Shown one piece after another: positions 48,011 through 64,000 of a stretch of 64,000 nt of DNA. Made by a program: the position numbers and the translations under genes. Position 1 is the stretch's first letter, and the number at the start of each line of letters is the position of its first letter. The stretch comes from Oryzomonas sp. Its GTDB lineage: Bacteria > Desulfobacterota > Desulfuromonadia > Geobacterales > Pseudopelobacteraceae. The stretch spans positions 62,001-126,000 of the forward strand of contig JARLHN010000008.1 of the NCBI GenBank assembly GCA_031292255.1, read 5' to 3'. The notes beneath the pieces were generated by a model. The model was not told the origin of the DNA. It did not search any database and saw only the letters and a program-made list of their open reading frames with translations.

Positions 48011-49561
48011 ATGAGTCCGGTTAATGAACTATTGTCAGGCAAAATCCGTCTGCCTACTCCGCCGGCAATTGCCATCAAGATTCTTGATACCGTGCGCGGG
48101 GATAGTTTCACCTTCGAAGACCTTGCCAGAGTGATCGAGTCGGATCCGGCCTTGGCGGCGAGAGTTCTGAAAGCCGCCAATTCCCCTTATTACCATCTGT
48201 CAAGCACGGTAACCAGCATTGAAAAGTCTGTGGCTATCCTTGGAACACATACGGTAAAGAATATTGCCCTGTCATTCGTTATCTGCTCCGAATTTCAGTG
48301 TGACCCTTACGAAACGTTCGACGCCACGATATTTTGGCGCCACGCACTATCGTCAGCCGTGGCCGCGGAATTAACCGCCACATTGGTTCACGCCCCCAGT
48401 AAGGACCTCTTCATCACTGCGCTGATGCAGGATATCGGCATATTGGTGATGCAAGGTTACCGCCCCCGTGACTATCAACTGGTATTCAATTGCAGAAAGG
48501 AAAGCCATCGGCCGTTACCGGAAATCGAAAGAATGATCTTTGCGTGCGATCATCAGGAGGTGGGGTCTGAGTTGCTCAGGAGTTGGCTGCTTCCTGAAGA
48601 AATCTACGAACCGATACGTTATCACCACCAAGATGCCGTGGTCCCCCCAAAATACCGGATTACAACCGCTCTCCTCTCTATCGCCAGGAATCTGTCTTCC
48701 TTCTACAACGGCTCCGAAGACGTCGACAAGATCAGGCAGGCTAAGCATATCCTCGACACGGAGTTCGGAATTAAAGGTAGTGACGTAGACACCTTGATTG
48801 AATCCGTTGCCACAACGACCCTCGAACTATTTTCGGTATTTGAGATAGCTCCCGGCGCCCTTCGGCCCTTTTCCAACATACTGCAAGAGGCAAATTCAGA
48901 ACTCAGCGAGTTGTATGACTCTTATGAGCTTCAGATTATTGAGCTGAAACAGGCGAAGAAGATGCTGGAAAAACAGACCAAAGAACTCAACAGGGCAAAT
49001 ACGAGACTTCGTGAAATTGCGTCCAAAGATGGCTTGACGGAGATCTTGAATTATCGTTCGTTCCAGGAGGCCATGGATCGTGAGATAATCAGATCGAAAA
49101 GGTATGGCAAAGAGTTTTCGCTGATCTCGTTCGATGTCGACAACCTCAAAGCGATCAATACCGATTATGGCCATCCGGCCGGCGACCTTGTGCTCGTCGA
49201 GATTTGCAGGGCCGTTGGCAAGATCATACGCGCCAGCGACATCTTTGCCCGGTGCGGAGGAGATGAGTTTTCCATCATAATGCCGGAAACTGACGCGGAC
49301 AGGGTTCTGATTGCCGCCGCACATCTGAAGAGTTGCGTGGAAAGCCTGGACATTCAGGCGGACGATGAGATTATCAAGGCTCAAATAAGTATAGGCGTCT
49401 CCAGTTACCACCCCGCTGTCCAGACCATGGACAAAAAGAGATTAATTCTAATGGCAGACAAGGCACTCCTGCGATCAAAAAACAGCGGCAAAAATCAAAT
49501 TTCCGTTTTTTACCCCGATGGCAATGATGGAATCACAAAGAGTGAAGAGATTCCCCCCTGA
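48011..49561 (+). CDS. HDOD-GGDEF protein (probable diguanylate cyclase)
   Basis: 516 residues. N-terminal HDOD domain (about 10-210: LPTPPAIAIKILDTVRGDSF, ESDPALAARVLKAANSPYYH, DIGILVMQGYRPRD), a coiled coil (about 300-345), then a GGDEF domain with canonical CGGDEF at residues 416-420. An I-site RASD lies five residues before it, indicating product inhibition. Expected to make cyclic di-GMP. HDOD domains relay signals and do not hydrolyse. An orthodox ribosome-binding site AGGAGAAGAGG precedes the ATG. Confidence 0.9.
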   Translation: MSPVNELLSGKIRLPTPPAIAIKILDTVRGDSFTFEDLARVIESDPALAARVLKAANSPYYHLSSTVTSIEKSVAILGTHTVKNIALSFVICSEFQCDPYETFDATIFWRHALSSAVAAELTATLVHAPSKDLFITALMQDIGILVMQGYRPRDYQLVFNCRKESHRPLPEIERMIFACDHQEVGSELLRSWLLPEEIYEPIRYHHQDAVVPPKYRITTALLSIARNLSSFYNGSEDVDKIRQAKHILDTEFGIKGSDVDTLIESVATTTLELFSVFEIAPGALRPFSNILQEANSELSELYDSYELQIIELKQAKKMLEKQTKELNRANTRLREIASKDGLTEILNYRSFQEAMDREIIRSKRYGKEFSLISFDVDNLKAINTDYGHPAGDLVLVEICRAVGKIIRASDIFARCGGDEFSIIMPETDADRVLIAAAHLKSCVESLDIQADDEIIKAQISIGVSSYHPAVQTMDKKRLILMADKALLRSKNSGKNQISVFYPDGNDGITKSEEIPP

Positions 49562-49578: not shown

Positions 49579-50658
49579 TCAGCAGGCGGCCGGAGCTAAT
49601 GAACCGAAGTTTTCCCCGGCAAGAGAGAGCGATGAATCCATCAATAAATCGGGCGGGAACATGCAAACCTTGTTTTTGCCCGTCCTCTTGGCCAGATAAA
49701 GAGCTTGGTCAGCTTGTTTTACAAGGTTGGCAGTGAAAATAGTGCCACCATCTTCGCTGGTTGCCAAACCTATGCTGACTGTTATCTGAATTCGCCGGCC
49801 GTCAAAGGTAAAGACAGTTTTCGCCAACCGGTTTCTAATCCGTTGCGCAATGACATGGGCAGCGGCGGCTTTGGTCTGAGAAAGAATGATTGCAAATTCT
49901 TCACCGCCGAAGCGGGCGACCAGATCGTGGCCACGGCAGCTTTCTTTAAGAATTCCCGCAAAAGACTTCAAAACCTGATCACCTGATTGATGCCCGAAGG
50001 TGTCGTTCAACTGTTTGAAATTGTCAAGGTCGAAGAGGAGGAGTGAAACCGGACGCATGTTCGGACTTTTTGCCTGTTGGACCAGGGTTTCATCAAAAAT
50101 TCTGCGGTTGAATAGCCCGGTGAGGCCATCACGCATCGCAAGGTCTTTCATTCTGCTGTGTTGCCGAGCGTTTTTGATCGCCTGACTGAAACAGGCCACA
50201 ATGTTGGCATGAAGCGAAGCGGAGAAGGTTTTTCCTTGACCTGCTTTATAGTAGATTGCAATGGTGCCAAGGTTGTCATGCAGGTTAAAGTGTGTGGAGT
50301 CACATGAACTCTCGGGCAATGAGGAAGGTGAATACACTTTGCCCACGATGATTTTTGGTCTGACAGCAACTATCCCCTCTTGAGCCATTGGGGAAAACAC
50401 AATGGTCCTACCTTCGAGTTCCGCTGAAAAAGCAAAGACAATCCGGCTGTAGGGGGCCTGTGCATAAAGAGCACGAGCGGCGATAGAACAGATACCGTCA
50501 AGCTCCAAGGAAGTGCTGACAGCAGTCATAAAACTGCTGATGAAACGTGCCTCTTCGAGTTGAGCCTGAAAGTTTTCCGATAGGCATCCGCCATCGTCAC
50601 ACAAGATTTGGGATTCGATCCCAACCTGTCTTTTTTTGTAATTGGTTTCCGTCCTCAT
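49579..50658 (-). CDS. GAF-like/GGDEF diguanylate cyclase
   Basis: 359 residues. The N-terminal ~160 residues resemble a GAF-type sensor (EARFISSFMTAVSTSLELDG). The GGDEF domain (about 175-340) has DGLTGLFNRRIFDE and active-site GGEEF at 251-255, with I-site RGHD five residues before. The C-terminal FGSLAPAAC tail is unexplained. GGGAGG stands before the ATG. Convergent with the HDOD-GGDEF gene; the two stops are 17 bp apart. Confidence 0.9.
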   Translation of the reverse strand: MRTETNYKKRQVGIESQILCDDGGCLSENFQAQLEEARFISSFMTAVSTSLELDGICSIAARALYAQAPYSRIVFAFSAELEGRTIVFSPMAQEGIVAVRPKIIVGKVYSPSSLPESSCDSTHFNLHDNLGTIAIYYKAGQGKTFSASLHANIVACFSQAIKNARQHSRMKDLAMRDGLTGLFNRRIFDETLVQQAKSPNMRPVSLLLFDLDNFKQLNDTFGHQSGDQVLKSFAGILKESCRGHDLVARFGGEEFAIILSQTKAAAAHVIAQRIRNRLAKTVFTFDGRRIQITVSIGLATSEDGGTIFTANLVKQADQALYLAKRTGKNKVCMFPPDLLMDSSLSLAGENFGSLAPAAC

Positions 50659-51453: not shown

Positions 51454-52638
51454 ATGGGAAAAAAGGCAACAATCACCCTTGCGGCGGCCCTCATCATGCT
51501 CCTGACACCCTGCGCCCTGTTGGCCGATGACACCACACCGGAACCCGCCGCTGCCAAACCCGCTAAACCCGCCGCTGCGGCATCAGCGGCATCAGCGGCA
51601 TCAGCGGCATCAGCGGCATCAGCGGCACCAGCAGCACCAGCGGCACCCGCCGCTGCCGCACCCACCCCGGCCGAAACCCGGCCGCCCGACCAGCCGGTCG
51701 GCGTCGCGCCTAAGACCGACGACACCCAGGCACTTGACAGCACTGCCATATTCGATCAGGGCGGCGCCCTGACGCCTCGGGGTAAGCTGATCATCGAGCC
51801 ATCCTTTCAGTATGCCCACTCCTCGTCGAACCAGGTCTCCGTGGTCGGCTATTCCATTATCTCGCTCCTCATCGGTCAGATCAACATCACGAATGTCGAG
51901 AGCGACACCTTGGTTGGCATCATGTCGCTTCGCTACGGATTGACCAACCGGCTTGAGGGAGAGGTCAAGGTACCTTACGTTTACCGGACCAATTCCACTG
52001 GTTGGAACTCTGCCGGCAGCAACGGCAAGAACACAAACAATGTCTTCAACGCCGACGGCGATGGCCTCGGGGACGTGGAATTCGGCCTGCGCTACCAGCT
52101 CAACAAATCCGGAGGCAACGCGTACTATCTGCTGGGGTTGCGGGTTAAGTCCAACACCGGCAAGGGTCCCTTTGATGTGCCGATCAATCAGGCGAACAAT
52201 CTGGAGAGCAAGCTCCCCACAGGATCGGGTTTTTGGGGGCTGCAGCCGGGGCTAACCGTGATCGTCCCGTCCGATCCGGCGGTCTTCTTCGGCAGCGTCA
52301 GTTATATGATAAATTTCGATCGCAACGTTTCCGATCCCAGCGCCAACGTAATCGGCCGGGTCGACCCAGGCGACATCATTGATTTGAACTTTGGCCTGGG
52401 CTTCGCCTTGAACGAAAAAACCTCCATCAGCATTGGCTACGATCACAGCATCGTCGGCCGGGTCAAGGTCAACGGCGCCTACCTGGAGGGTACCATGGTC
52501 AGCCAACTGGGCACGCTTCTGGTCGGCTACTCCTATCGGGAAAACGACCATGTCAGTTTCAGTGTCACCCTGGGCGCCGGACTGACCAATGACGCCCCCG
52601 GCGTCCAGCTCACCTTCAAAATGCCCTATAGTCTGTAA
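51454..52638 (+). CDS. Outer-membrane beta-barrel with Ala-rich N-terminal segment, FapF-like candidate
   Basis: 394 residues. Signal peptide (MGKKATITLAAALIMLLTPC ending ALLA), an Ala/Pro/Ser region (about 30-80) made of repeated SAA and APA triplets, and a C-terminal barrel of about 300 residues. Strands such as VGIMSLRYGLTNRLEGEVKV and VSFSVTLGAGLTNDAPGVQL, with a terminal aromatic-like FKMPYSL, resemble the MetA-pathway/transporter barrel family. FapF of Pseudomonas also combines an N-terminal helical segment with a barrel and exports amyloid subunits. By analogy I infer an export pore for the proteins encoded at 54.8-58.6 kb. The triplet region is coded by 9-bp DNA repeats (about 51583-51640). 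Confidence 0.7.
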   Translation: MGKKATITLAAALIMLLTPCALLADDTTPEPAAAKPAKPAAAASAASAASAASAASAAPAAPAAPAAAAPTPAETRPPDQPVGVAPKTDDTQALDSTAIFDQGGALTPRGKLIIEPSFQYAHSSSNQVSVVGYSIISLLIGQINITNVESDTLVGIMSLRYGLTNRLEGEVKVPYVYRTNSTGWNSAGSNGKNTNNVFNADGDGLGDVEFGLRYQLNKSGGNAYYLLGLRVKSNTGKGPFDVPINQANNLESKLPTGSGFWGLQPGLTVIVPSDPAVFFGSVSYMINFDRNVSDPSANVIGRVDPGDIIDLNFGLGFALNEKTSISIGYDHSIVGRVKVNGAYLEGTMVSQLGTLLVGYSYRENDHVSFSVTLGAGLTNDAPGVQLTFKMPYSL

Positions 52639-52662
52639 CGAACTATAGCCAAGGAGGGTCGC

Positions 52663-54129
52663 ATGCCACGACTCGATGTACGCAGCAAGACCGAGATCAC
52701 CGCCCTCGCGGTACGCCATGACGACGCCCGAAACCAAGAGGTGCGCATCAAGGTTAAGGAGCTGAGCCTCTCCAGCGGCGTTCTGTCCGGCCTGGATTCG
52801 GTGCCGGAGGTGCCGTTTTTGATCAAGATCGCCCTGCCCGACCGCGGCCGGGTTGAACTGGCCGCCGAGGCATTACGTGGCAATGACGGCCAGCACGTAG
52901 TGCGGTTCTTCTTCCCGCAGCGCCAGGCCATGGCAAGCCTATGGGCCTTTATCCGCACCCAGCCCCAGGAGCCGGGACTTTGCCCCTACTGCGCCCGTCC
53001 CGTGTCAAGCGCTCGGAATAACTGTATTTTTTGCGGCCGTTGTCTGGAGTTGTTGGCCACCACGTACCTCGACCAGCATCTCCAGGCCACCCTGACCGAA
53101 CGGCTGGCGCCCAGACTCGAGCACCTCGACACCAGTTTCATCCAGCGGATCATGGCCATGATGGACAGAGCCATCATCGGCGAAGTCGAGGCGCGTGCCG
53201 ATGAAGAATTCGTCGGCACAACCCCGGCCATGCTCGATGTATTCGCCATGATCCGCCGCGCAGCGGCGACCGACATGAATATACTCATCCTGGGCGAATC
53301 CGGCACCGGCAAGGAGTTGACCGCCAAGGCGATCCATGAGAAGAGTCTGCGCCGGGAGGGACCATTGGTAGTGGTAAATTGTGCCGCCATCCCCGAGGGG
53401 CTGTTGGAGGGAGAACTGTTCGGCCATGAGAAAGGGGCTTTCACCGGCGCCCATGCGGCCAAAAAAGGACGCTTTGAGTTGGCCAACGGCGGCACGATCT
53501 TTCTCGACGAGATCGGCGACCTGCCGACACCACTGCAGGCCAAGCTACTCCGTTTCCTGGAGGACCGGGTCGTGGAGCGGATAGGCGGCAAGAACGGCGT
53601 CCGGGTCGATGTGCGGATCATCGCCGCCACCAACTGCGATCTCGAAGGGATGGTCGCCGCCGCCGGTTTCCGTGGCGACCTCTTCTACCGGCTCAACAGC
53701 TTCACCATCAAGCTGCCGCCGCTGCGGGACCGCGGCGAAGACAAGGTGATCCTGGCCAAGTACCTGTTCCAGAAAATCGGCCGCATCGAACAGTCACCCC
53801 TGGCCGGCTTGTCCGATGCGGCCCTGGAGGCGATCCGGCGCCATGATTGGCCGGGCAATGTCCGAGAGTTAATCAACAAGATCCGCCGCGCAATCGTCAT
53901 GGCCCGTAGCGAATGGATCGAACCGGCGGATCTGGAGCTCGCCCCGGTCCTGCCGGCCGGCGGCATCGCTGCCGCCGTACCGGGGAGCGAACGGGAGCTG
54001 GTTTGTGCCGCCCTGGAATCGTCCGGCTATGTCGTGGCCCGGGCCGCCCGGGCACTCGGCGTGAGCCGTCCGACCCTGTACCACCTGCTGCGCCGCCATC
54101 AGATCGGCCTGCCGAAGCGAATGTGCTAG
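52663..54129 (+). CDS. Sigma-54-dependent transcriptional activator with PilZ-like N-terminus and zinc ribbon
   Basis: 488 residues. N-terminal ~95 residues look like a degenerate PilZ domain (VRIKVKELSLSSGVLSG, no clear RxxxR). A zinc ribbon follows: Cys107, Cys110, Cys121, Cys124 (CPYC...CIFC). The AAA+ domain has Walker A GESGTGKE (211-218), sigma-54 contact GAFTGA (258-263) and Walker B GTIFLDEI (277-284). A Fis-type HTH is C-terminal (VARAARALGVSRPTLYHLLR). GGAGG precedes the ATG. It lies 24 bp after the barrel gene, so co-transcribed with it. The strong sigma-54 promoter 640 bp downstream is the obvious target. Confidence 0.9.
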   Translation: MPRLDVRSKTEITALAVRHDDARNQEVRIKVKELSLSSGVLSGLDSVPEVPFLIKIALPDRGRVELAAEALRGNDGQHVVRFFFPQRQAMASLWAFIRTQPQEPGLCPYCARPVSSARNNCIFCGRCLELLATTYLDQHLQATLTERLAPRLEHLDTSFIQRIMAMMDRAIIGEVEARADEEFVGTTPAMLDVFAMIRRAAATDMNILILGESGTGKELTAKAIHEKSLRREGPLVVVNCAAIPEGLLEGELFGHEKGAFTGAHAAKKGRFELANGGTIFLDEIGDLPTPLQAKLLRFLEDRVVERIGGKNGVRVDVRIIAATNCDLEGMVAAAGFRGDLFYRLNSFTIKLPPLRDRGEDKVILAKYLFQKIGRIEQSPLAGLSDAALEAIRRHDWPGNVRELINKIRRAIVMARSEWIEPADLELAPVLPAGGIAAAVPGSERELVCAALESSGYVVARAARALGVSRPTLYHLLRRHQIGLPKRMC

Positions 54130-54175
54130 ACGCAAGACAAAACATAACAACAAAAAAACCCACCCTCTCCTCTTT

Positions 54176-54510
54176 ATGCCGATTCCAAATCCAGGACAAA
54201 AACTCGTGTCTCGCGCGGTTAGTTCGTACTCGTAATTCCGGCTCTTTTGACCGCTGCCGTCGTTGCGGCTCCCTGATGTTGACCCTGCTACATCCACGTC
54301 GCCTCGCCTTGGCATCAACCGAAACAGCTCGTTGAGGAACCAAAGACGATCCAATGACAATTTGCGAAGCAAATTGGACCGCGAAGGCGCCCCGCAGGGG
54401 GAGACCGAAGGACTCGTCACAATTTGCGAAGCAAATTGGACCGCGAAGGCGCCCCACAGGGGGAGACCGAAGGACTCGTCAAGATAGCGCCTTGATTTGA
54501 AATCGGTATT
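54176..54510. repeat. Composite element: CCGATTCCAAATC ends around a CGGTTAGT element copy
   Basis: Outer ends ATGCCGATTCCAAATCCAGG (54176-54195) and CCTTGATTTGAAATCGGTAT (54490-54509) are near-perfect inverted repeats matching those at 33409-33498. Inside (54208-54345) lies an inverted, one-end-degenerate copy of the 29531-29690 element (AATTCCGGCTCTTTTGACCG..., then CTGCCGTCGTTGCGGCTCC). A 62-bp direct repeat follows, 54357-54418 and 54419-54480, each with the hairpin CAATTTGC gaa GCAAATTG. Confidence 0.65.
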
Positions 54511-54602
54511 AGCCCGCAACTCTCCCCCCATCCAAAAGTTACTGCCCACCACCGCGCTCATGATCCGCCTGCAAGCGATCGTCATCCAGATCCAGCGGGG
54601 TC

Positions 54603-54719
54603 TTTTACACTTCAGTCTATTTTACACTTTTATGTAAATTTCCAACTAGTTGAAAACGCTGGCATTAGCCGGCAACTGTAAAGAAACATGTAAAATACGA
54701 CAGCACCCTGTTTTACAGG
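54603..54719 (+). promoter_or_regulatory. Upstream activator site array (TTTTACA/TGTAAAA)
   Basis: Matches to TTTTACA or its complement at 54603-54609, 54620-54626, 54633-54638 (TGTAAA), 54677-54683 (TGTAAAG), 54690-54696 and 54711-54717. Two are arranged as the inverted pair TTTACACTTTTATGTAAA (54621-54638), and the last forms CCTGTtttACAGG (54707-54719). They lie 50-165 bp upstream of the sigma-54 promoter, the normal place for enhancer-binding protein sites. The activator encoded at 52663 is the likely binder. Confidence 0.55.
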
Positions 54720-54767
54720 CACCGCAAACATACAGCATAACTCTTTGATATTACTTGTGTTTAAATT

Positions 54768-54782
54768 TGGCACGCGCCCTGC
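54768..54782 (+). promoter_or_regulatory. Sigma-54 (-24/-12) promoter of the fibre operon
   Basis: TGGCACGCGCCCTGC: GG at 54769-54770 and GC at 54781-54782, exactly ten bases apart, with the full TGGCAC -24 box. The first start codon follows 46 bp later, giving a leader of about 34 nt. Confidence 0.8.
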
Positions 54783-54827
54783 TTTAATGATAGCAGGTAA
54801 GTGATCTAAATTATGGTGGGGGTTTAT

Positions 54828-55178
54828 ATGGTTGCCACGCACCCGGCTGTCAGTGGTCTGCTTGTTGTCCTGGCCCTTGTTACGGCACCGGTCTGTGGTG
54901 CCGAGCAGGCTCCGGCAACCAGCGTTACATCACCAACGACTCAAGAGGCCCCGGCCGTCGACCTGCTTGCCGGTTGTTATGTGCCGCCCCTCTCCATGGA
55001 AGAACTGGGGCAGGTATCCGGCGGTGCCCTGACCCTGCTCAGCCCAGAGCAGCTACAGCAATCTGCGGCGGGTGTCAAGCTTTGGGATGAGGCTCGCATG
55101 AGGCCGGCCAGCACCGTGGACTCGGGACCGGGACAGATTCCGAGCAACGTCTCGGTGCAACAGACGCTGTTTCATTAA
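54828..55178 (+). CDS. Exported small protein with double-glycine leader motif (fibre locus A)
   Basis: 116 residues from the ATG at 54828 (GGGGG five bases upstream); a less well supported ATG at 54813 adds five residues. Sec signal (about 1-24, GLLVVLALVTAPVCG), a Thr/Pro linker, then PPLSMEELGQVSGGALTLLS. The LSxEELxxVSGG pattern (GG at 65-66) is that of bacteriocin-type leaders cut by C39 peptidases, but placed after a Sec signal. The mature part would be about 50 residues, ending IPSNVSVQQTLFH. First gene after the sigma-54 promoter. An exported C39 peptidase is encoded in the same operon. Confidence 0.7.
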   Translation: MVATHPAVSGLLVVLALVTAPVCGAEQAPATSVTSPTTQEAPAVDLLAGCYVPPLSMEELGQVSGGALTLLSPEQLQQSAAGVKLWDEARMRPASTVDSGPGQIPSNVSVQQTLFH

Positions 55179-55304
55179 TGGCAGCGGCCCAGGCGTGAAG
55201 TGGACCACAATTTGATTAGTGGTGAAACAACGTGGTTATGAAGTCAGCAGTGTAATTTGGCGAAGTTTTCCTATTGTGCAGTCAACCCAGAAAAGGAGAA
55301 CACC

Positions 55305-56870
55305 ATGAAAACACGTTTTATCGGCATCCTCGCAGTAGCGGCATTGGCATCAGGCACCGGTCTCGCATTGGCTGCCACCACAACAAACAACGGCACCGGC
55401 TCGGCCGGCACCGCGGTCGGCAGCAGCTCGGTCTCCAGCACGACGACCAGCAACACCACCAATAACACCAGCACTTCGGACCCCACAACCGTCAGCAAAC
55501 AAAATGGTGCCACCATCGCCTCCGACAACTCGGCGACCAACACCAAGACAAGCACTGACACAACTTCGGTCAACAAAAACTCCGACAACGCGATAGCCTC
55601 CGACAACACTTCCACCAAAACCAACACCAACACTTCCACCAAAACCAACACTGCCACCAACAATTCGACCAACACCAAGGATGCCGGAAACACGACAGCC
55701 TCCGACAACACGGTAGCCTCAGACAACACTTCCACCAAAACCAGCACTGACACAACTTCGGTCAACAAAAACTCCGACAACACGGTAGCCTCCGACAACA
55801 CTTCCACCAAGACCAACACCGCCACCAACAATTCGACGAACACCAAGGATGCCGGAAACACTACCGCCTCCGACAACACGGTAGCCTCAGACAACACTTC
55901 CACCAAAACCAACACCAACACTTCCACCAAAACCAGCACTGCCACCAACAATTCGACCAACACCAAGGATTCGGGGAACACGGTAGCATCCGACAATACA
56001 TCAACCAAAACCATCAATGACACAACTTCGGTGTCCAAAGACTCCGGCAACACGGTAGCCTCCGACAACACATCCAGCAAAACCAACACTGTCACCAACA
56101 CTTCCACCAAGACCAGCACTGCCACCGACAATTCGGTCAATACCAAGGACTCAAACAACACCTTGACTGTCAACAAGGACTCCGGCAACACTTCCACCAA
56201 GACCAACACCAACACTTCCACCAAGACCAGTACTGACACCAACAATTCGGTCAACACCAAGGATTCGGGGAACACGGTAGCATCCGACAACACCTCGAAC
56301 AAGACCGACACCACCAACGTGACCAAGGACTCAAACAACACCACCACCAAGACTGACACCACTACCACCAACCTGACCAAGGACTCAAACAACACCACGA
56401 CCAAGACCGACACCACCAACCTGACCAAGGATTCAAACAACACCACAACCAAGACTGACACCACTACCACCAACCTGACCAAGGACTCAGACAACACCAC
56501 CACCTTGAACAAGGACTCGGACAACACCACGACCACGACCAAGACCGACACCACCAACTTGACCAAGGACTCAAACAACACCATCACCACCAACAAGGAC
56601 ACAGGCAATACCAGCAATGACAGCCATGCCGTTACCATCGGCGACATTGCCGTGGCCGTGGCCAGCACCACACTGACAGGCGCTGTGACCGGCAACAGCA
56701 TGTCTCTCGGCGCATCTTCCTATATCTCCACCGGCTACAATAATATCGACGGCAACGCCTTCCAGGGCGCTTCCGGGATCAGCACCGTAACCCAGAACAG
56801 CGGCGTCAACTCGTTGATCCAGCCGTCGATTAACGTGCAGTCCAACCTGACCATGAGCCCCGCCCACTAA
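55305..56870 (+). CDS. Thr/Asn/Ser-rich repeat protein, candidate fibre subunit
   Basis: 521 residues from the ATG at 55305 (AAGGAG upstream). Cleavable signal MKTRFIGILAVAALASGTGL, ending ALA. Residues ~25-440 are low complexity made of units like TNTSTKTSTATNNSTNTKDS and GNTVASDNTS, almost free of aromatic and large hydrophobic residues and with no Cys. The C-terminal ~85 residues are ordered-looking, with GISTVTQNSGVNSLIQPSIN near the end. The repeats recur in DNA as near-identical ~60-150-bp blocks. The composition resembles FapC-like and curli-like secreted amyloids or adhesins. It is the largest product of the operon before the giant Ig protein. Confidence 0.75.
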   Translation: MKTRFIGILAVAALASGTGLALAATTTNNGTGSAGTAVGSSSVSSTTTSNTTNNTSTSDPTTVSKQNGATIASDNSATNTKTSTDTTSVNKNSDNAIASDNTSTKTNTNTSTKTNTATNNSTNTKDAGNTTASDNTVASDNTSTKTSTDTTSVNKNSDNTVASDNTSTKTNTATNNSTNTKDAGNTTASDNTVASDNTSTKTNTNTSTKTSTATNNSTNTKDSGNTVASDNTSTKTINDTTSVSKDSGNTVASDNTSSKTNTVTNTSTKTSTATDNSVNTKDSNNTLTVNKDSGNTSTKTNTNTSTKTSTDTNNSVNTKDSGNTVASDNTSNKTDTTNVTKDSNNTTTKTDTTTTNLTKDSNNTTTKTDTTNLTKDSNNTTTKTDTTTTNLTKDSDNTTTLNKDSDNTTTTTKTDTTNLTKDSNNTITTNKDTGNTSNDSHAVTIGDIAVAVASTTLTGAVTGNSMSLGASSYISTGYNNIDGNAFQGASGISTVTQNSGVNSLIQPSINVQSNLTMSPAH

Positions 56871-56963
56871 TCGACCGGTCGCAACACGAAACAGCGGCGC
56901 CACCCGGATTTACGGCGGGTGGCGCCTCCCTGTTGCATGAGGAAGATCCACGGAGGTTGCGAT

Positions 56964-57332
56964 ATGAAAACATTCTTACTGGCAATAGCGCTCTTGGGCA
57001 CCGGCGCGATGGCAGGCTGGGCGGCGGACAACGGCAAGCCGCTTTCGGCCAGCCTCGACGCGAGTGATCTTGGGCCCGCCCTGCCGGCGGCCAGCATGGC
57101 GCAGCAGACAGGCCGGCAGGGTGTGTCCATCGACGAGTTGAACAACACACTGAACACGTCGGACCCGACCGGCACAGTCAGCAGCAACATACTGACCTCG
57201 GCGGCAACCGGCACCAATATCGTCAGCGACAACGCCTTCGGTAATACCAGCGGCGTCGCCACGGTGATCCAGAACAGCGGCAACCAGAACGTCATTCAGA
57301 GTTCCTTTATCCTGAACCTGAGTGTCAAATGA
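56964..57332 (+). CDS. Small secreted protein related to the C-terminus of the repeat protein
   Basis: 122 residues from the ATG at 56964 (GGAGG seven bases upstream). Signal peptide (about 1-20, MKTFLLAIALLGTGAMAGWA). Residues 53-65 (GVSIDELNNTLNT) resemble the leader pattern of the double-glycine proteins, but without GG. The C-terminus has GVATVIQNSGNQNVIQSSFI, aligning with TVTQNSGVNSLIQPSIN of the upstream repeat protein. It could be a nucleator or minor subunit (compare FapB versus FapC). The stop overlaps the C39 gene start by 4 bp (ATGA). Confidence 0.7.
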   Translation: MKTFLLAIALLGTGAMAGWAADNGKPLSASLDASDLGPALPAASMAQQTGRQGVSIDELNNTLNTSDPTGTVSSNILTSAATGTNIVSDNAFGNTSGVATVIQNSGNQNVIQSSFILNLSVK

Positions 57333-58030
57333 TCACCCGGGTCTTGGTTGGCATGCTCCTGCTAACGGCCTGCTGCCTGGCAAGGGCCAGGGAGGGCGAC
57401 GCGGGTACGATCTACGCGCCCGCCGCTTTTCTTGGACCTGTGGCGGTCAAGGTCACCAGTCTGAAGGAGCTTAAGTTCCGCCGCACCGTCCAGCAACAGT
57501 ACGATTTCAGTTGCGGCTCGGCGGCCTTGGCAACGCTTCTTACTTATCATTACGAGGATCGGGTCCCGGAAGCGGAGATCTTTATGGCCATGTACAACGC
57601 TGGCGACAAGGACAAGATCCGCCGGGAGGGCTTTTCGCTCCTGGATATGAAAAATTACCTGCAGCGCCGCGGGTACCAGTCCGACGGGTTCAAGATCAGC
57701 CTGGACAAGGTTCGTCAGGTTGGCGTGCCGGCGCTGGTACTCATCAGTAATCATGGTTACAAGCATTTCGTCGTCCTCAAGGGAGTGGCCGCCCGCACGG
57801 TGCTCCTGGGCGACCCGGCGCTGGGCGCCAGGGTAATGGCCCGTAAGGAGTTTGAAGAATCCTGGAATGGCCTGGTCTTCCTGGTGCGCTCCCACAAAGA
57901 GGTGGCCGTGCGCCACTTCAACCAGGCCGCAGAGTGGCCCTCTTCGGGCCGATTGACGAATTTCGTGCCGCTGGTAAGCGACCGACTGCTCAGCCCGACA
58001 TTGTATATGTCAATTATCGGTGGCCATTAG
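57329..58030 (+). CDS. Exported C39-family cysteine peptidase, FapD-like
   Basis: 233 residues. The N-terminal LLLTAC (residues 10-15) fits a lipobox, so it may be a lipoprotein; otherwise a normal Sec signal. C39 domain: oxyanion-hole Gln and catalytic Cys62 in QQQYDFSCGSAALATLLTYH, His146 in YKHFVVLKGV and Asp162 in LLGDPALGAR. No ABC-transporter domain is attached, unlike bacteriocin exporters. It would cut double-glycine leaders after Sec export, in the periplasm. FapD of the Pseudomonas Fap operon is the nearest known type. Genes on either side encode Sec + GG proteins. Confidence 0.85.
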   Translation: MITRVLVGMLLLTACCLARAREGDAGTIYAPAAFLGPVAVKVTSLKELKFRRTVQQQYDFSCGSAALATLLTYHYEDRVPEAEIFMAMYNAGDKDKIRREGFSLLDMKNYLQRRGYQSDGFKISLDKVRQVGVPALVLISNHGYKHFVVLKGVAARTVLLGDPALGARVMARKEFEESWNGLVFLVRSHKEVAVRHFNQAAEWPSSGRLTNFVPLVSDRLLSPTLYMSIIGGH

Positions 58031-58055
58031 GCCCACTGTGCCGGGAGGCACACCT

Positions 58056-58583
58056 ATGAAACGACACTATTTACAACTAGCCTTGGCCGGCGCCCTGCTC
58101 GCGATGCTGGCTGGTGTGGCATCTGGTGGCGCCGGGGTTTTTGAGCTTGCATCCCAAGTCCCTGTAAGCGATGCCGAGTTGGCGACCCTGCGCGGCGGAT
58201 TTACCACGCCGGACGGCATTCTGGTCTCTTTTGGCATCACCCAGGCCACATACGTCAACGGCATACTCGACAGTACAAATAGTTTTACCGTGACCCAAGG
58301 CGGCAGCACCGGCGCAAATCCGGCGCTCCAGGTGGCAAGCCAGATGGGCAATAACGGCTTGCGCGTGATTCAGATCGGCCCGCAGGGCTCAAACACCTTT
58401 CTGCCGAGCACGACGCCAACCTTGGGCCTATCGAGGAGCTTAACAGTGATCCAGAACACCCTTAACCAGCAGGTGATCACCAACTCCACCGTCATCAATG
58501 CCTCGCTGGCCAACATGGGCCTGGTCCGAGATACCAACCTCTCCAACGCGCTCCGCCAACAGATGATCAGTGGCCTGCATTAA
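58056..58583 (+). CDS. Exported protein with double-glycine motif (fibre locus B)
   Basis: 175 residues from the ATG at 58056 (GGGAGG seven bases upstream). Sec signal MKRHYLQLALAGALLAMLAG, then VPVSDAELATLRGGFTTPDG with GG at 47-48 and the ELxxLxGG leader pattern. The mature part of about 127 residues is Ser/Thr/Asn/Gln-rich and has SLTVIQNTLNQQVITNSTVI, a third version of the QN...(I) motif seen in the two preceding proteins. It ends the operon: a perfect 18-bp-stem hairpin overlaps its stop codon. Confidence 0.7.
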   Translation: MKRHYLQLALAGALLAMLAGVASGGAGVFELASQVPVSDAELATLRGGFTTPDGILVSFGITQATYVNGILDSTNSFTVTQGGSTGANPALQVASQMGNNGLRVIQIGPQGSNTFLPSTTPTLGLSRSLTVIQNTLNQQVITNSTVINASLANMGLVRDTNLSNALRQQMISGLH

Positions 58584-58620
58584 TTAGTTTTTATCCGGAG
58601 TTTCCGGATAAAAACTAATT
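58582..58620 (+). terminator. Perfect 18-bp TCCGGA hairpin at the end of the fibre operon
   Basis: AATTAGTTTTTATCCGGA gtt TCCGGATAAAAACTAATT: the longest member of the TCCGGA palindrome family, beginning within the TAA stop codon. The stem itself contains TTTTT/AAAAA, so it may function as a bidirectional terminator. Confidence 0.6.
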
Positions 58621-58671
58621 AGCAGGCGCCGGCTTGACCATGACTTATGATGGGTTACACTTATAGCAACT

Positions 58672-58686
58672 TGGCGCCGGAGGTGC
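58672..58686 (+). promoter_or_regulatory. Possible sigma-54 promoter before the giant Ig-repeat gene
   Basis: TGGCGCCGGAGGTGC: GG at 58673-58674, ten bases, GC at 58685-58686. It lies 40 bp before the ATG. The -12 half is poorer than at 54768, and the sequence also forms a GGCGCC/GCGCC hairpin, so it is uncertain. Confidence 0.35.
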
Positions 58687-58725
58687 GCCGGCGAGGCTAT
58701 CTAAAGTGGTTAACGAGGTGGGTTA

Positions 58726-61700
58726 ATGCGCCGAAGCGGCCGTTTTTTTGCATTCTGGGGGGGGTGTGCGGCGCTGTTCGTGCTCTTAAGCACGGGCAGC
58801 GCCGGTGCCGTTACTATTGACCCGGTGGCTACGCCGGTCAACATTACCACCATTACGGTTACCGGCACCATGGATAGCAATGACCAGGTGACCGTGACGT
58901 GCCCGGGGGCATCGCTGGGCTCCGTCAATAATCCGACCCCCACCACATGGAGTGTGCAGGTGTCGGGTCTCCCGGAGGGAACGAGCACGATTACCGCCAC
59001 CGCGGATGGCGAAGACCCGCCTAATGCCCAGGCGACAATCCTGGTCGACACCACGCCGCCCAGCCTGTCGGTATCGGCGCTCCCCGACGGCGCCTACACC
59101 AATAATCCAATTTTGAACATCTCCGGAACGGCAAGCGACAGCGGCAGCGGCCTGGCACAGGTGACGGTCAATAGGACGCCCGTCACCGTGACGAACGGCA
59201 GTTTCAGCACGAGTGTGACCCTGGCGCTGGGCACCAACACCATCACCACGGTGGCCTCCGACCAGGCCGGCAACACCGAGACCGACACGCGGACCATCAC
59301 CCTGGACGAGACCGCGCCACAAATCACAATCGCTCAGCCTGCCGACAACAGCGCCACCAATGTGTCACCGCTCACGGTCAGCGGCACGGTCGACAAGACC
59401 GCCGTGGTCAATGTCGCGGTTAACGGCGGCTCGTCCCAGGCGGCAACCCAGGACAATGACGGCTTTACCGTCCAAGTGCCGCTGGCGGAGGGCACCAACA
59501 CCATAAGCATCACCGCCACCGACCAGGCCGGTAATATCGCTAGCGCCAAGCGGACGGTGCTCTACGACACCATCAGCCCGACGATCCAGATCACCGAGCC
59601 GCCCCAGGACCTGGTCACCAACCAGGCAAACTACCTGGTGCAAGGCACGGTCAGCGACCCGGAGACCTCGGTCACCGTCGCAGTCGCGGTCAATGGCCAA
59701 TCCACGCCCGTCACGGTATCCTCCGGCACCTTCCAGTTAAGCGTGCCCTTGACCGTCAACGAGCTCTACCAGGTGGTGGCCACCGCCACCGACACAGCCG
59801 GCAACCAAGCCAGCGCCACCCGCAATATTACGTTCGACAATATCCCACCCACCATCACCAAGGCAGCGTCAAGCACCTCTACCGGCTATTACGGCCCGGG
59901 TAGCAGCGTCGATGTCAGCCTTTCCTTCTCCGAGCCGGTCTATTCTTCGGGGTTGACGATCACGCTCAGTTCCGGGGCTGCCCTGACCACCGGCGCCCTC
60001 TCGGCCGTGACCTCCTTCGACACCTCGTACCAAGTGGCCGCCGGCCAGAATACGGCTCAGTTGAACGTTACAAACGTCACCGGCACCATCAGCGACCTGG
60101 CAGGCAACCAGAACCAGAACCCGTCAGTGCCGGTTGGGGCCAATATCGGCAATGTGGTGCAGATCGCCATCGAAACCACCCCACCGACCGCCACGTTGAC
60201 CTCCGAGCCGGCTAATCCGGCCAACACCAAAACCGGCAGTTTCACCTTTACGCTCGACGTCGCCGGGGCGACGGCCCAGTGCGCCCTGGACAACACCGTC
60301 TTCAACACCTGCAGCTCGCCGTTCGCCTTTGATCTCAGTAACCAACCGGACGGCAGCCACACCTTCAGCGTGCGCGGCGTGGACCAGGCAGGCAATATCG
60401 GAACACCGAACAGCTATTCCTGGGCCATCGACACCACGCCGCCCACGATCACCCAAGCGGCATCAACGACCGCTGCCGGCTATTACGGCCCGCAGAAAAG
60501 CATCGATGTCAGCCTTGCCTTCTCCGAACCGGTCAATTCTTCGGGGTTGACGATCACGCTGAGTTCCGGGGCCACCCTGACCACCGGCGCCCTCTCGGCC
60601 GCGACCTCCATCGACACCACCTACGTGGTGGCTGCCGGCCAGAATACGGCTCAGTTGAACGTGACGTCCGTCACCGGCACGATCAGCGACCTGGCAGGCA
60701 ATCAGAACCAGGCACCACTAGTGCCTGCGGGGTCCAATATCGGCAACAAGGTGCAGATCGTCATCGAGACCACCCCGCCGACCGTCACTTTCACCTCCAA
60801 ACCGGCTAATCCGACCAACATCAAAAGCGGCAGCTTCACCTTTACGCTCAGCGTCGCCGGGGCGACGGCCCAGTGCGCCATTGACAGCGTCTCCGCCTTC
60901 AACACCTGCAGCTCGCCGTTCGCCTTCGATTTCAGTAACCAGCCGGACGGCAACCACACCTTCAGCGTGCGCGGCATTGACCAGGTAGGCAACGTCGGCG
61001 CCGTCAACACCTATTCCTGGACCATCAATACCACGTCCCCTACCGTGTCAGCCGGACCGGACAAGACCTCCAGCAGCCAGTTCACCCAGACCGGCACGGT
61101 GAGCGATGCCTCGGCATACACCGTGCAATGGAGTCAACAATCCGGGCCGGGGACGATTACCTTCGGCACGCCGACGGCCCTCTCCACCACGGTCAGCGCC
61201 AGCCAGGACGGCCAGTACGTGCTGCTTTTGACCGCGACCGATGCTGCCGGCAACACGGCCACAAATACCATGACCCTTATCTGGGACACGGTAAAGCCGC
61301 TGGTCAACGCCGGGGCGAACAAGACCTCCGGCATCTCGTTTAGTCAGACCGGCACGGTGAGTGATTCCCTGCCCGTGACTGTGCAGTGGAGCCGGGTATC
61401 CGGACCGGGGACTGTCACCTTTGGTTCACCGACTGCCCTGACCACCACGGTCAGCGCCAGCCAGGACGGCCAGTATGTGCTGCAGCTCACGGCGACCGAT
61501 AGCGCCGGCAATGTAGCCGCCAGCACCATGACCCTGACCTGGGACACGGTCAAGCCGCTGGTCAACGCCGGGGCGAACCAGACCTACGGCATTCAGTTCA
61601 CCCAAACCGGCACGGTAAGTGATTCCCTGCCCGTGACTGAACAGTGGAGCCAGGTCTCCGGACCGGGCACAGTCGCTTTTACCGCACCGACGAGTCTGAC

Positions 61701-64000
61701 GACCCAAGTCAGCGCCACCCAGGACGGCCAGTACGTGCTGCTGTTGACCGCCACCGACAGTGCCGGCAACGTGGGATCCGCTACCATGTCCCTGACCTGG
61801 GACACGGTCAAGCCGGTGGTCTCGGCCGGGACAAACCAGGTAGCCAACAGCTCCATTACCATTACCGGCAGCGCCAGCGATACCCTGAATCAGACCTACC
61901 ATTGGAGCCAGACCTCGGGACCGGGCACGGTAAGCTTCAGCGCCCCCAACAGTCTCACGACCCAGGTCACGGCCAACCAGAATGGCCAATATGTCCTACA
62001 ATTGACTGCCACCGACAGCGCCGGCAACACGGCCGCCAGCACTATGAACCTGACCTGGGACACCGTCAGTCCGGTTGTCTCGGCAGGGCCGAACCTGGTC
62101 ACCAACGGCACCGGTACCATTACCATCACCGGCAGCGCCAGCGATGCGTTGGGCCTCACGTATCAATGGAACCAGGTCTCGGTCTCCCCCGGGCCGGGCA
62201 CTGTATCCTTCACCGCCTCCAACAGTCTCGCTACCCAGGTCACGGCCAGCCAGGACGGGCTCTATACGCTGCAACTGACCGCCACCGACGCTGCCGGCAA
62301 TACGGCTACCAGCACCATGACCTTGACCTGGGACACCACGCCGCCCAGCATGACGGTATCGGCGCTGCAGAATGGCGCCTACACCAACAACCCGATCCTG
62401 AACGTCGCCGGAACGGCCGGCGACAGCGGCAGCGGCCTGGCACAGGTGACGGTCAATGGGAAGGCCGTCACCGTAACGAACGGCAGTTTCAGCACGAGCG
62501 TTACCCTGGCGGTGGGCGCCAACATCATCACCACAGTGGCCTCCGACCAGGCCGGCAACACCACGACCGACACGCGGACCATTACCCTGGACGAGACCGC
62601 GCCACAGATCACGATCGCGCAGCCCGCCGACAACAGCGCCACCAATGTGTCACCGCTCACGGTCAGCGGAAGCGTCAATAAAACCGCCTCGGTCAACGTC
62701 GCGGTCAACGGCGGTTCGTCCCTGGCGGCGACCCCCCAGGATAATAACGGCTTCACAGTCCAAGTGCCTTTGGCGGCGGGCACCAACACCATAACCATCA
62801 CCGCCACCGACCAAGCCGGTAATTTCACTACCGCCAAGCGGACGGTGCTCTACGACACCGTCAACCCGACGATCCAGATCACCGAACCGCCCCAGGACCT
62901 GGTCACCAACCAGGCAAACTACCTGGTGCAAGGCACGGTCAGCGACCCCCAGACCTCGGTTACCGTCGTGGTCTCGGTCGATGGCCAATCCTCGCCCGTC
63001 ACGGTATCCTCGTCCGGCGCCTTCGAGTTGAGCGTGCCCTTGACCGTCAACAAGAGCTACCAGGTGGTGGCGACCGCCACCGACGCGGCCGGCAACCAGG
63101 CCAGCGCCACCCGCAATATCACGTTCGACAATATCCCGCCCACCATCACCCAGGCAGCGTCAACCACCGCTGCCGGCTACTACGACGTAGGAAACAAGGT
63201 CGATGTCAGCCTTGCCTTCTCCGAGCCGGTCTATTCTTCTTCGGGGTTGACGATCACCCTCAGCTCCGGGGCAACTCTGACCACCGGCCCTCTCTCGGCC
63301 GTGACCTCCTTCGACACCTCATACGTGGTGGCCGCCGGCCAGAATACGGCTCAGTTGAACGTGACGGCCGTCACCGGCACGATCAGCGACTTGGCAGGCA
63401 ATCAGAGCCTGAACCCGGGAGTGCCGACGGGGGCCAATATCGGCAATGTGGTGCAGATCGCCATCGAAACCACCCAGCCCACGATCACCCAAGCGGCATC
63501 AACCACCGCTGCCGGCTATTACGGCACGGGGAGCAAGGTCGATGTCAGCCTTGCCTTCTCCGTACCGGTCAATTCTTCGGGGTTGACGATCACCCTCAGC
63601 TCCGGGGCCACCCTGACCACCGGCGCCCTCTCGGCGGCAACCTCCTTCGACACCACCTACGTGGTGGCCGCCGGCCAGAATACGGCTCAGTTGAACGTGA
63701 CGGCCATCACCGGCACTATCAGCGACCTGGCCGGTAATCAGAACCCGGCCCCGGGAGCGCCTGCGGTCAATATCGGCAATAAAGTACAGATCGCCATCGA
63801 CACCATCCCACCGAACGTCTCGGCCGGTTCCAACGTGACCTCCGGCATCCAGTTCACCCAAACCGGCACGGCGAGCGACTCTCTGCAGGTGACCACCGTG
63901 CAGTGGAGCAAGCAGTCCGGGCCGGGGCAGATCACCTTCGGCACGGCGACGGCTCTTGCCACCACGGTCAACGCAAGCCAGGACGGCCAGTACGTGCTGC
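58726..64000 (+). CDS. Giant exported Ig-like repeat protein (5' 1758 codons; continues past window)
   Basis: ATG at 58726 with GAGGTG five bases upstream; the frame stays open to base 64000. Signal peptide (about 1-29, FFAFWGGCAALFVLLSTGSA). Then Ig-like modules. Type 1, bacterial Ig (TPPSLSVSALPDGAYTNNPI; SDQAGNT): residues 111-370 and 1206-1467. Type 2 (TKAASSTSTGYYGPGSSVDV; GTISDLAGNQ): starting near 370, 569, 1467, 1584. Type 3 with a Cys pair (GATAQCALDNTVFNTCSSPF): near 484 and 684. Type 4, PKD/REJ-like (VSAGPDKTS; VQWSQQSGPG): near 771, 859, 943, 1029, 1112, 1694. Probably a surface adhesin or stalk; the anchor or export signal is not visible. Confidence 0.85.
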   Translation, partial: MRRSGRFFAFWGGCAALFVLLSTGSAGAVTIDPVATPVNITTITVTGTMDSNDQVTVTCPGASLGSVNNPTPTTWSVQVSGLPEGTSTITATADGEDPPNAQATILVDTTPPSLSVSALPDGAYTNNPILNISGTASDSGSGLAQVTVNRTPVTVTNGSFSTSVTLALGTNTITTVASDQAGNTETDTRTITLDETAPQITIAQPADNSATNVSPLTVSGTVDKTAVVNVAVNGGSSQAATQDNDGFTVQVPLAEGTNTISITATDQAGNIASAKRTVLYDTISPTIQITEPPQDLVTNQANYLVQGTVSDPETSVTVAVAVNGQSTPVTVSSGTFQLSVPLTVNELYQVVATATDTAGNQASATRNITFDNIPPTITKAASSTSTGYYGPGSSVDVSLSFSEPVYSSGLTITLSSGAALTTGALSAVTSFDTSYQVAAGQNTAQLNVTNVTGTISDLAGNQNQNPSVPVGANIGNVVQIAIETTPPTATLTSEPANPANTKTGSFTFTLDVAGATAQCALDNTVFNTCSSPFAFDLSNQPDGSHTFSVRGVDQAGNIGTPNSYSWAIDTTPPTITQAASTTAAGYYGPQKSIDVSLAFSEPVNSSGLTITLSSGATLTTGALSAATSIDTTYVVAAGQNTAQLNVTSVTGTISDLAGNQNQAPLVPAGSNIGNKVQIVIETTPPTVTFTSKPANPTNIKSGSFTFTLSVAGATAQCAIDSVSAFNTCSSPFAFDFSNQPDGNHTFSVRGIDQVGNVGAVNTYSWTINTTSPTVSAGPDKTSSSQFTQTGTVSDASAYTVQWSQQSGPGTITFGTPTALSTTVSASQDGQYVLLLTATDAAGNTATNTMTLIWDTVKPLVNAGANKTSGISFSQTGTVSDSLPVTVQWSRVSGPGTVTFGSPTALTTTVSASQDGQYVLQLTATDSAGNVAASTMTLTWDTVKPLVNAGANQTYGIQFTQTGTVSDSLPVTEQWSQVSGPGTVAFTAPTSLTTQVSATQDGQYVLLLTATDSAGNVGSATMSLTWDTVKPVVSAGTNQVANSSITITGSASDTLNQTYHWSQTSGPGTVSFSAPNSLTTQVTANQNGQYVLQLTATDSAGNTAASTMNLTWDTVSPVVSAGPNLVTNGTGTITITGSASDALGLTYQWNQVSVSPGPGTVSFTASNSLATQVTASQDGLYTLQLTATDAAGNTATSTMTLTWDTTPPSMTVSALQNGAYTNNPILNVAGTAGDSGSGLAQVTVNGKAVTVTNGSFSTSVTLAVGANIITTVASDQAGNTTTDTRTITLDETAPQITIAQPADNSATNVSPLTVSGSVNKTASVNVAVNGGSSLAATPQDNNGFTVQVPLAAGTNTITITATDQAGNFTTAKRTVLYDTVNPTIQITEPPQDLVTNQANYLVQGTVSDPQTSVTVVVSVDGQSSPVTVSSSGAFELSVPLTVNKSYQVVATATDAAGNQASATRNITFDNIPPTITQAASTTAAGYYDVGNKVDVSLAFSEPVYSSSGLTITLSSGATLTTGPLSAVTSFDTSYVVAAGQNTAQLNVTAVTGTISDLAGNQSLNPGVPTGANIGNVVQIAIETTQPTITQAASTTAAGYYGTGSKVDVSLAFSVPVNSSGLTITLSSGATLTTGALSAATSFDTTYVVAAGQNTAQLNVTAITGTISDLAGNQNPAPGAPAVNIGNKVQIAIDTIPPNVSAGSNVTSGIQFTQTGTASDSLQVTTVQWSKQSGPGQITFGTATALATTVNASQDGQYVL
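59056..60170 (+). repeat. Large internal repeat, copy 1 (giant gene)
   Basis: About 1.1 kb that is nearly identical to 62341-63461 (offset 3285, growing to about 3291 from small in-frame indels). It encodes the block of type 1 modules plus one type 2 module, implying segmental duplication within the gene. Confidence 0.75.
62341..63461 (+). repeat. Large internal repeat, copy 2 (giant gene)
   Basis: Second copy of the 59056-60170 block. Shared marker strings include CGGCAGTTTCAGCACGAG and CAACCAGGCAAACTACCTGG. All differences are substitutions or multiples of three. Confidence 0.75.

Follow-up and report, generated by a model that had tools for sequence, protein, structure and literature searches.

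Does a run of co-oriented genes in Oryzomonas sp. (class Desulfuromonadia, order Geobacterales) encode an extracellular fibre system of the Fap type, and which proteins does its C39 peptidase cut? The locus fills the end, from position 51454 onward, of a 64,000-nucleotide stretch (contig JARLHN010000008.1, positions 62,001 to 126,000, assembly GCA_031292255.1). This stretch, hereafter the window, belongs to a contig of 200 kb in a 3.7-Mb assembly that is 88% complete. On the + strand, a barrel gene and a sigma-54 activator gene are followed by a gap of 0.7 kb, in which a -24/-12 site lies, and by six co-oriented genes, the last of which codes for a giant Ig-repeat protein and has its stop at 65658, beyond the window end (Table 1). 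All eight genes listed in the initial annotation were recovered at the same coordinates. We consider it likely that the locus is an export operon for a Fap-type extracellular fibre, probably amyloid-like, in a lineage sister to classical Fap. Sequence support for this reading comes from the homology of the barrel, the peptidase and a FapE-like protein, from double-glycine leaders, from the gene neighbourhood, from the promoter, and from the pairing of the giant protein with a lipoprotein.

Table 1. Features of the locus (window coordinates; genes are named in the text by their first position; a dot marks features without strand)
Feature	Position	Strand	Basis
FapF-like outer-membrane barrel gene, N-terminal Ala/Pro-rich linker replacing the coiled coil	51454..52638	+	NCBIfam FapF, PDB FapF chains
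Sigma-54 enhancer-binding protein with an N-terminus possibly derived from PilZ, a CxxC linker resembling a zinc ribbon, an AAA+ core and a Fis-type HTH	52663..54129	+	
62-bp tandem duplication (98% identical) in the gap before the promoter, each copy with a CAATTTGCGAAGCAAATTG dyad	54357..54480	.	
Palindrome, possible activator site	54639..54656	.	
Sigma-54 (-24/-12) promoter-like site TGGCACGCGCCCTGC	54768..54782	+	9/10 consensus bases, 1 mismatch
Small Sec-type protein, canonical double-glycine leader LSMEELGQVSGG ahead of A (GG 55020-55025)	54828..55178	+	
Long subunit candidate (FapC position), Thr/Asn/Ser-rich repeats and C-terminal G-x8-G..Q module	55305..56870	+	
Short subunit candidate (FapB position), leader-like TGR site, C-terminal module as in 55305	56964..57332	+	
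FapD-like periplasmic C39 peptidase	57329..58030	+	Pfam PF03412, NCBIfam C39_FapD
FapE-like protein, signal-peptide-like start, leader VSDAELATLRGG ahead of F (GG 58194-58199), predicted FapD substrate	58056..58583	+	
Giant Ig-repeat protein, dockerin-like C-terminus, 2310 aa	58726..64000, on to 65658	+	
Lipoprotein gene directly after the giant gene, opening 3 bases behind it	65662-66918 (outside window)		

The barrel matches the NCBIfam FapF model (E = 1e-50, 173 bits; curated cut-off 700), and its residues 88-392 match the chains of the FapF crystal structures 5o65, 5o67 and 5o68 (E = 9e-39 to 1.3e-37). Its identity to three relatives is 44-49%. The peptidase matches Pfam PF03412 (E = 8.7e-22) and NCBIfam C39_FapD (E = 1.8e-44, 152 bits; cut-off 330). 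These matches bear out the earlier suggestion of a FapF-like barrel and a FapD-like C39 peptidase. Cys62, His146 and Asp162 of the peptidase, which we take to be its catalytic residues, are invariant in four aligned sequences. Judged by eye, the protein appears to be exported by Sec; its signal peptide (57329-57400) holds LTAC, a possible lipobox that is absent from the three aligned relatives. The 58056 product matches NCBIfam FapE (E = 2.3e-6, 27 bits; cut-off 250) and has in common with FapE a leader site and the FG[IV] segment that follows it. FapE-like proteins share further conserved segments behind the leader, and the window protein would retain 127 residues after the predicted cut.

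A FastTree phylogeny of 102 FapD sequences, rooted on Acinetobacter FilB, places the window peptidase within a clade of 79 tips (support 0.92). Aeromonas and the genomes found with the NCBIfam FapE model (15 of the 369 genomes of the class of Dyella) fall in a separate clade of 21 tips (support 0.95), which also takes in five loci of the window's class that belong to other families. Because the window FapD lies in a clade apart from classical Fap, we regard the locus as a sister lineage. A FapD from a metagenome-assembled genome labelled Ignavibacteria (L019) branches within the Geobacterales group, which may reflect transfer or mis-binning.

The distribution of the genes was surveyed in 277 genomes of the class by a profile search (FapD at E ≤ 1e-30). 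FapD was present in 20 of them, representing 13 of 82 genera, and was found in none of the five other genomes available for the window's genus. A contig scan with a four-sequence FapD alignment yielded 67 named loci, from Geomonas, Geotalea, Dyella, Phenylobacterium, Asticcacaulis, Dechloromonas and others. Adding the window and three relatives gives 71 loci (L009 and L020 being one locus counted twice), among which local models detected FapF in 64, FapE in 68 and a short FapB-like subunit in 59, the latter two models having been seeded from four loci. The initial annotation had made the idea of a system depend on such co-occurrence of C39 homologues with barrel and repeat genes, and these counts uphold it. 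Removal of the duplicates L014, L015, L016, L017, L018 and L020 (identical to L107, L102, L101, L103, L100 and L009, respectively) left 86 loci: 61 named, 21 of the class (two from one genome) and four plasmid-collection records. The short subunit and fapD have a long subunit upstream of them in 58 of the 86; the long-subunit model alone matches in 54 of these, and the FapB-like model matches as well in the window, L101, L102 and L105. The conserved block thus reads long subunit, short subunit, fapD and fapE, with fapF and often an activator gene nearby.

Downstream of this block, Dockerin_1 matches the C-terminus of the giant protein weakly (4.2e-4, 20.9 bits; cut-off 22.9) and that of the relative L106 at 1.2e-6 (29.1 bits). 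A dockerin-like open reading frame (ORF) lies directly upstream of the lipoprotein gene in all 12 loci returned, three of which are seeds of the dockerin model. The lipoprotein matches no Pfam or PDB cohesin, and its candidacy as a cohesin carrier was dropped as lacking sequence support. The giant protein also has a weak PamR match (1.3e-5); NF058577, the NCBIfam neighbour of PamR, is an unrelated ferredoxin model. Two related loci show irregularities in the module. In L100 (Geotalea toluenoxydans; 1643-3852, 9259-9762) the giant and lipoprotein genes are fragmented and the end of the FapE-like ORF differs, through decay or sequencing errors, and in L099 (13639-19681) the lipoprotein gene stands between two dockerin-ended ORFs, which suggests duplicated adhesins.

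The inclusion of the giant adhesin in the system, as the initial annotation had it, holds in part: the giant protein is a member of the locus in the majority of FapD-positive Geobacterales genomes. A strong lipoprotein match (at least 397 bits) is present in 13 of the 14 such genomes. The 15 best matches, all at or above this score, come from these 13 genomes and from G004 and G220, in which contig breaks fall inside the giant gene; since eight of the 13 supplied the model, the independent count is five of the remaining seven, the other two being uninformative. Within the class, with at most six candidates scored per genome, the lipoprotein family occurs in 59 of 277 genomes compared with 20 for FapD, so that the giant-lipoprotein module is also found without FapD, which weighs against a single system; outside Geobacterales, none of the six FapD-positive genomes of the class showed this lipoprotein. 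The locus might unite a Fap-like operon with a giant adhesin-lipoprotein pair that is unrelated to it and happens to lie downstream. The commonness of the lipoprotein-dockerin module without FapD in the order speaks for such a chance meeting, and so does G008, which has FapD and lacks the module. Against it, in 12 of the 14 genomes fapD and the lipoprotein with the highest score share a contig and are no more than about 21 kb apart (in G244 it is on another contig), although eight of these genomes supplied the lipoprotein model, which favours them in the ranking. The differing orders and strands imply that the association was kept through rearrangement. Moreover, the giant gene starts 142 bp after fapE in the window, a spacing that suggests one transcript. 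We consider unrelated neighbours possible but doubtful. The window genome has a second, distant dockerin-plus-lipoprotein pair (G000:C21:12249-13308; L155) on a contig without FapD, and the pair therefore looks like a module of its own.

The FapE-like proteins offer the clearest view of what the peptidase may cut. A FapE-model match adjoins fapD on the same strand in 75 of the 86 loci; the 11 others (L098, L109, L111, L112, L114, L022, L042, L053, L076, L079 and L116) have no such match beside fapD, and several are cut by contig ends. A leader of the form L...RGG followed by a hydrophobic residue is present in 68 of the 75 proteins, and a relaxed form (C39-type double-glycine, typically L...RGG ahead of F/Y) in 74. 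Among the other Sec-like ORFs of the loci it occurs in 1 of 259, an ORF located just behind fapD in L076 that is probably a missed FapE, and among all other ORFs of at least 80 aa in 25 of 5648. In the 75 sites, position -12 is V/L/I/A in all 75, outside the search expression, -11 is S in 35, -8 is E in 29 and -4 is I/M/V/L in 48; -7 is L/M in 75, -3 R in 69, -2 G in 75, -1 G in 74 and +1 F/Y in 63, these five positions being constrained by the search expression. This constraint weighs against the leader reading, as do several further points: the FapE model was seeded from leader-bearing proteins, which favours the leader count; the crude Sec test used for the control ORFs is passed by only 44 of the 75 FapE-like proteins; the 54828 homologues in L009 and L010 carry GHG in place of GG; and the short subunit of Geobacterales has GR, not GG. 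In the FapE alignment the named loci were picked by motif, so that the invariant GG there is no independent count.

C39 peptidases cut behind a leader of the type LxxxELxxIxGG. Both the 54828 and the 58056 products carry this pattern, and cleavage after GG is predicted for FapE. On a scale of 0-5 (positions -12, -11, -8, -7 and -4), 61 of the 75 FapE sites score 4 or 5 compared with 21 of 295 other GGs in the Sec-like ORFs of these loci, position -7 being favoured by the search for the FapE sites. A permissive search of the short FapB-like subunit upstream of fapD (n = 61) gave GG in 39, GR in 14, GQ in one and none in seven. Of 16 loci of the class of Dyella detected with the FapE model, 10 had their frame followed, and in these 10 classical FapE has RG[R/K][F/Y] at the leader position; in the other six the reading frame was wrong and they were left out. 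The corresponding sequence in Aeromonas FapE is GELAHLRGRY.

An alternative is that the double glycine of FapE is a structural turn and that FapD acts on another protein, such as the FapF linker, or as a chaperone. The RG[R/K] of Aeromonas and of the gammaproteobacterial loci followed favours this idea, as RG[R/K] is unusual for a C39 site. A role of FapD on the FapF linker has also been proposed (PMC5557850; PMC12822426; published work is cited here from passages of the papers). The difference in leader score, with the caveat on position -7, argues against a mere turn, and the active-site Cys of FapD is needed for secretion in Pseudomonas (PMC5557850); we consider the alternative unlikely. 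The same passages report that N-terminal peptides of Pseudomonas FapE are missing by mass spectrometry; they draw attention to GG and GA motifs in both FapE and FapF, where no canonical C39 sequence was seen. The leader site agrees with these missing peptides and with the cysteine requirement. In the passages cited, FapD has at most a presumed substrate, and processing of FapE is proposed with no site or leader of this kind given.

From these data we put forward a broader proposal, on which our confidence is evenly balanced. FapD-type peptidases would be periplasmic C39 proteases acting on exported proteins that carry a second leader of the double-glycine type. FapE would be such a substrate in every lineage, joined in this one by the short nucleator-like subunit and the 54828-type protein. 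Position -2 would always be Gly, whereas the last leader residue (G, R, K, H or Q) would depend on the protein and the lineage. The window would then represent a widespread second Fap-like lineage with its own subunits, often accompanied in the class by a PilZ-type sigma-54 activator and in Geobacterales by a lipoprotein-anchored giant adhesin. The near-canonical leader site is plain and conserved in this lineage, and the question of the FapD substrate thereby becomes precisely testable, including in classical Fap with its RG[R/K]. That the locus instead matures and exports a bacteriocin-like peptide, with the double-glycine proteins as product, the barrel releasing short peptides and the repeat proteins as accessories, is very improbable: the leaders do resemble the general C39 bacteriocin-type consensus, the C39 domain also matches ABC-transporter peptidase models and, by eye, ABC-type transporter genes adjoin the locus in L009 and L010, but a scan of nine proteins of the window locus revealed no ABC transporter, the barrel is FapF-like, the FapE-like protein would keep 127 residues after the cut and FapE-like proteins have conserved segments behind the leader, and the genes conserved alongside code for two subunits of low-complexity or repeat type.

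The two subunit candidates differ from those of classical Fap. The long one consists of 30% Thr, 17% Asn and 15% Ser, and the description of the 56964 product as its small relative holds for the common C-terminal module. Neither candidate has a match of any kind in NCBIfam. The NCBIfam FapB and FapC models, which do detect the Aeromonas subunits (7.9e-22 and 1.2e-50), match neither of them. The Fap repeat pattern G-X4-N-X3-G-X6-N (PMC5135000) occurs 0 times in the window long subunit, has any match in 8 of 59 long subunits, and is found 2 and 3 times in Aeromonas. We rejected an identity with FapC and FapB because of the model results and the repeat pattern. The C-terminal CxxC of FapC is absent from all 16 long subunits inspected for it, and as the Aeromonas protein also lacks it, this is a weak criterion. 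Comparison of the C-terminal module with the Fap repeats gave an hhalign score of 15.1 (E 0.0014), with 20 column-shuffled controls reaching at most 12.1; this remote link was not counted, because both alignments had been cut on the G-x8-G pattern. Without that cut, a G stands nine before the G in 57 of 60 long and 60 of 60 short subunits with the N[STA]G motif, for which 62 long and 61 short subunits were examined. These differences suggest that fibre subunits are replaceable while the export core stays.

The absence of FapB and FapC matches thus weighs against a Fap-type reading, as do two other observations. All window proteins fall below the curated NCBIfam cut-offs; the Fap proteins tested from a classical-looking locus of Aeromonas caviae also stay below them, with 249 bits for FapD, 371 for FapF and 47 for FapE. 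In addition, a crude heptad search found no coiled-coil-like stretch in the window barrel. This search detected the FapF coiled coil in 1 of 13 Geobacterales and 36 of 45 other loci; it scored 58 of 79 FapF proteins and, as Aeromonas FapF could not be scored, has no classical positive control.

The activator matches Pfam PF00158 (E = 1.6e-68), PF25601 and PF02954. Window-wide, -24/-12 sites are unremarkable (65 matches vs 76 expected at ≤2 mismatches). A site with 9-10 of 10 consensus bases is nevertheless found between the activator and the long-subunit gene in all eight loci with a PilZ-type activator (the window, L009, L010, L101, L102, L104, L105 and L108), where about 0.3 would be expected over the 7.1 kb scanned (background 0.04 per kb); because of this conservation we take the promoter site to be more than chance. 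In L104 and L108 the stretch scanned took in the long-subunit gene as well, with the site located before it. No 9-10/10 site was found in L011, which has a BrfA-like activator. Of the promoter with activator sites described initially, the -24/-12 site is confirmed, and the activator sites are weakly supported by the palindrome and the tandem duplication.

PilZ domains bind cyclic di-GMP (c-di-GMP) through the motifs RxxxR and [D/N]xSxxG. R3 and R7 are invariant in nine aligned activator N-termini, Pfam PilZ matches five of the nine at E ≤ 1, and it matches the whole activators of L010 and L009 at 1.1e-9 and 2.6e-9. The window activator, which aligns with these N-termini and keeps RxxxR, is possibly PilZ-derived and c-di-GMP-responsive. 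Several results count against this: its second c-di-GMP motif is degenerate (ELSLSS), Pfam PilZ does not match it even at E ≤ 1, a scan of whole activators gave no PilZ in L102 and L111 (two of four relatives), and the reading is weakened further by a PilZ model built from just L009 and L010, which fails to detect the window activator at E ≤ 1. In the stretches at hand, the 86 loci have a PilZ-type activator in 13 (model seeded with the window, L009 and L010), a BrfA-like one in 19, another in 10 and none in 44. All 13 PilZ-type activators come from the window's class. A BrfA-like N-terminal model, for which the activators next to six Fap-like loci served as seeds (Aeromonas, Photobacterium and four Geobacterales; BrfA's own sequence not included), matches neither the window activator nor the 12 others at E ≤ 1e-4. 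Fap control of this kind is known, and the claim that a dedicated enhancer-binding protein is foreign to described Fap arrangements therefore fails: in Pseudomonas fluorescens PF07 the fapA-E operon is controlled by RpoN, through a -24/-12 promoter, and by the activator BrfA, whose gene lies next to it (PMC9207406) and which senses c-di-GMP (PMC13101488). By analogy, another sensor domain may have taken over BrfA's job in this lineage.

We infer the following scheme from the sequences, with export, cleavage, order of assembly, amyloid nature, c-di-GMP sensing and dockerin-lipoprotein binding as predictions. The sigma-54 activator, possibly responding to c-di-GMP via a PilZ-derived domain, would turn on the 54768 promoter and the operon, whose products would use Sec to pass the inner membrane. 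Once they are in the periplasm, the FapD-like peptidase would strip the second leader from the FapE-like protein, cutting after the GG of VSDAELATLRGG, and would probably treat the short FapB-like subunit and the product of 54828 likewise. After processing, these minor components may open or prime the FapF-like barrel, through which the Thr/Asn/Ser-rich long subunit would be exported to assemble on the short one. The giant Ig protein, by its dockerin-like end, and the following lipoprotein would form a surface-anchored adhesin made alongside the fibre. If this reading holds, Geobacterales are candidates for amyloid-like matrix fibres.

Upstream of the locus, Pfam identifies two GGDEF genes at 48011-49561 (+) and 49579-50658 (-), one of them with an HDOD domain; these diguanylate cyclase genes fit a c-di-GMP control of the locus. 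The GC content is 60% in the locus, 55% in window positions 1-51000 and 59% downstream, a difference that is not decisive, and an argument for recent horizontal gain based on it was discarded. An Rfam scan gave no match at the gathering score, and no tRNA genes were found in 40000-64000.

Compared with Fap (fapABCDEF of Pseudomonas, Aeromonas and others), the window shares a homologous FapF barrel, FapD C39 peptidase and FapE, two subunit genes of unequal length beside fapD, and an RpoN-type promoter with a neighbouring enhancer-binding protein, as known for P. fluorescens. It differs in subunits that match neither the FapB nor the FapC model and lack the Fap repeat pattern, and in the gene order, which runs long subunit, short subunit, D, E, with fapF preceding the activator, instead of fapABCDEF. 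Further differences are a GG leader in FapE where the classical one is GR/GK, a FapF coiled coil that the crude test did not find, an activator that is not of the BrfA-like type, and the addition of the giant Ig protein and lipoprotein. We do not class the locus as classical Fap because of the FapB/FapC results and the gene order. Nor is it the new system that was first proposed, since BrfA/RpoN control, a separated fapF and fapD-fapF pairs elsewhere are already published; a separated fapF in particular, which the initial annotation took as foreign to Fap in the form of a barrel-first order, is a common deviation (PMC3792158). The Fil system of Acinetobacter (NCBIfam FilA, FilB and FilC) likewise has a stand-alone C39 peptidase and a barrel of the same superfamilies, and a similar motif behind the start of FilA, DDAALSAATGQDGI (L120). 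The window matches to FilB (1.5e-33) and FilC (4e-12) are weaker than those to FapD and FapF and below cut-off, and the window subunits have no NCBIfam FilA match. Acinetobacter FilA (L120, 4694-5563) carries the motif DDAALSAATGQDGINIGIAL near its start, and FilB may cut a related leader. The cohesin-dockerin adhesins of syntrophic sulfate reducers (PMC10553843, in the passages cited) are also Ig-type adhesins with dockerin/cohesin partners, whereas the partner lipoprotein here has no cohesin domain by sequence. Finally, fapD-fapF pairs were reported in five further phyla in 2018 (PMC6173800), and the window locus is very probably one of these non-classical pairs; the passages of that paper describe the pairs without substrates, leaders or regulators.

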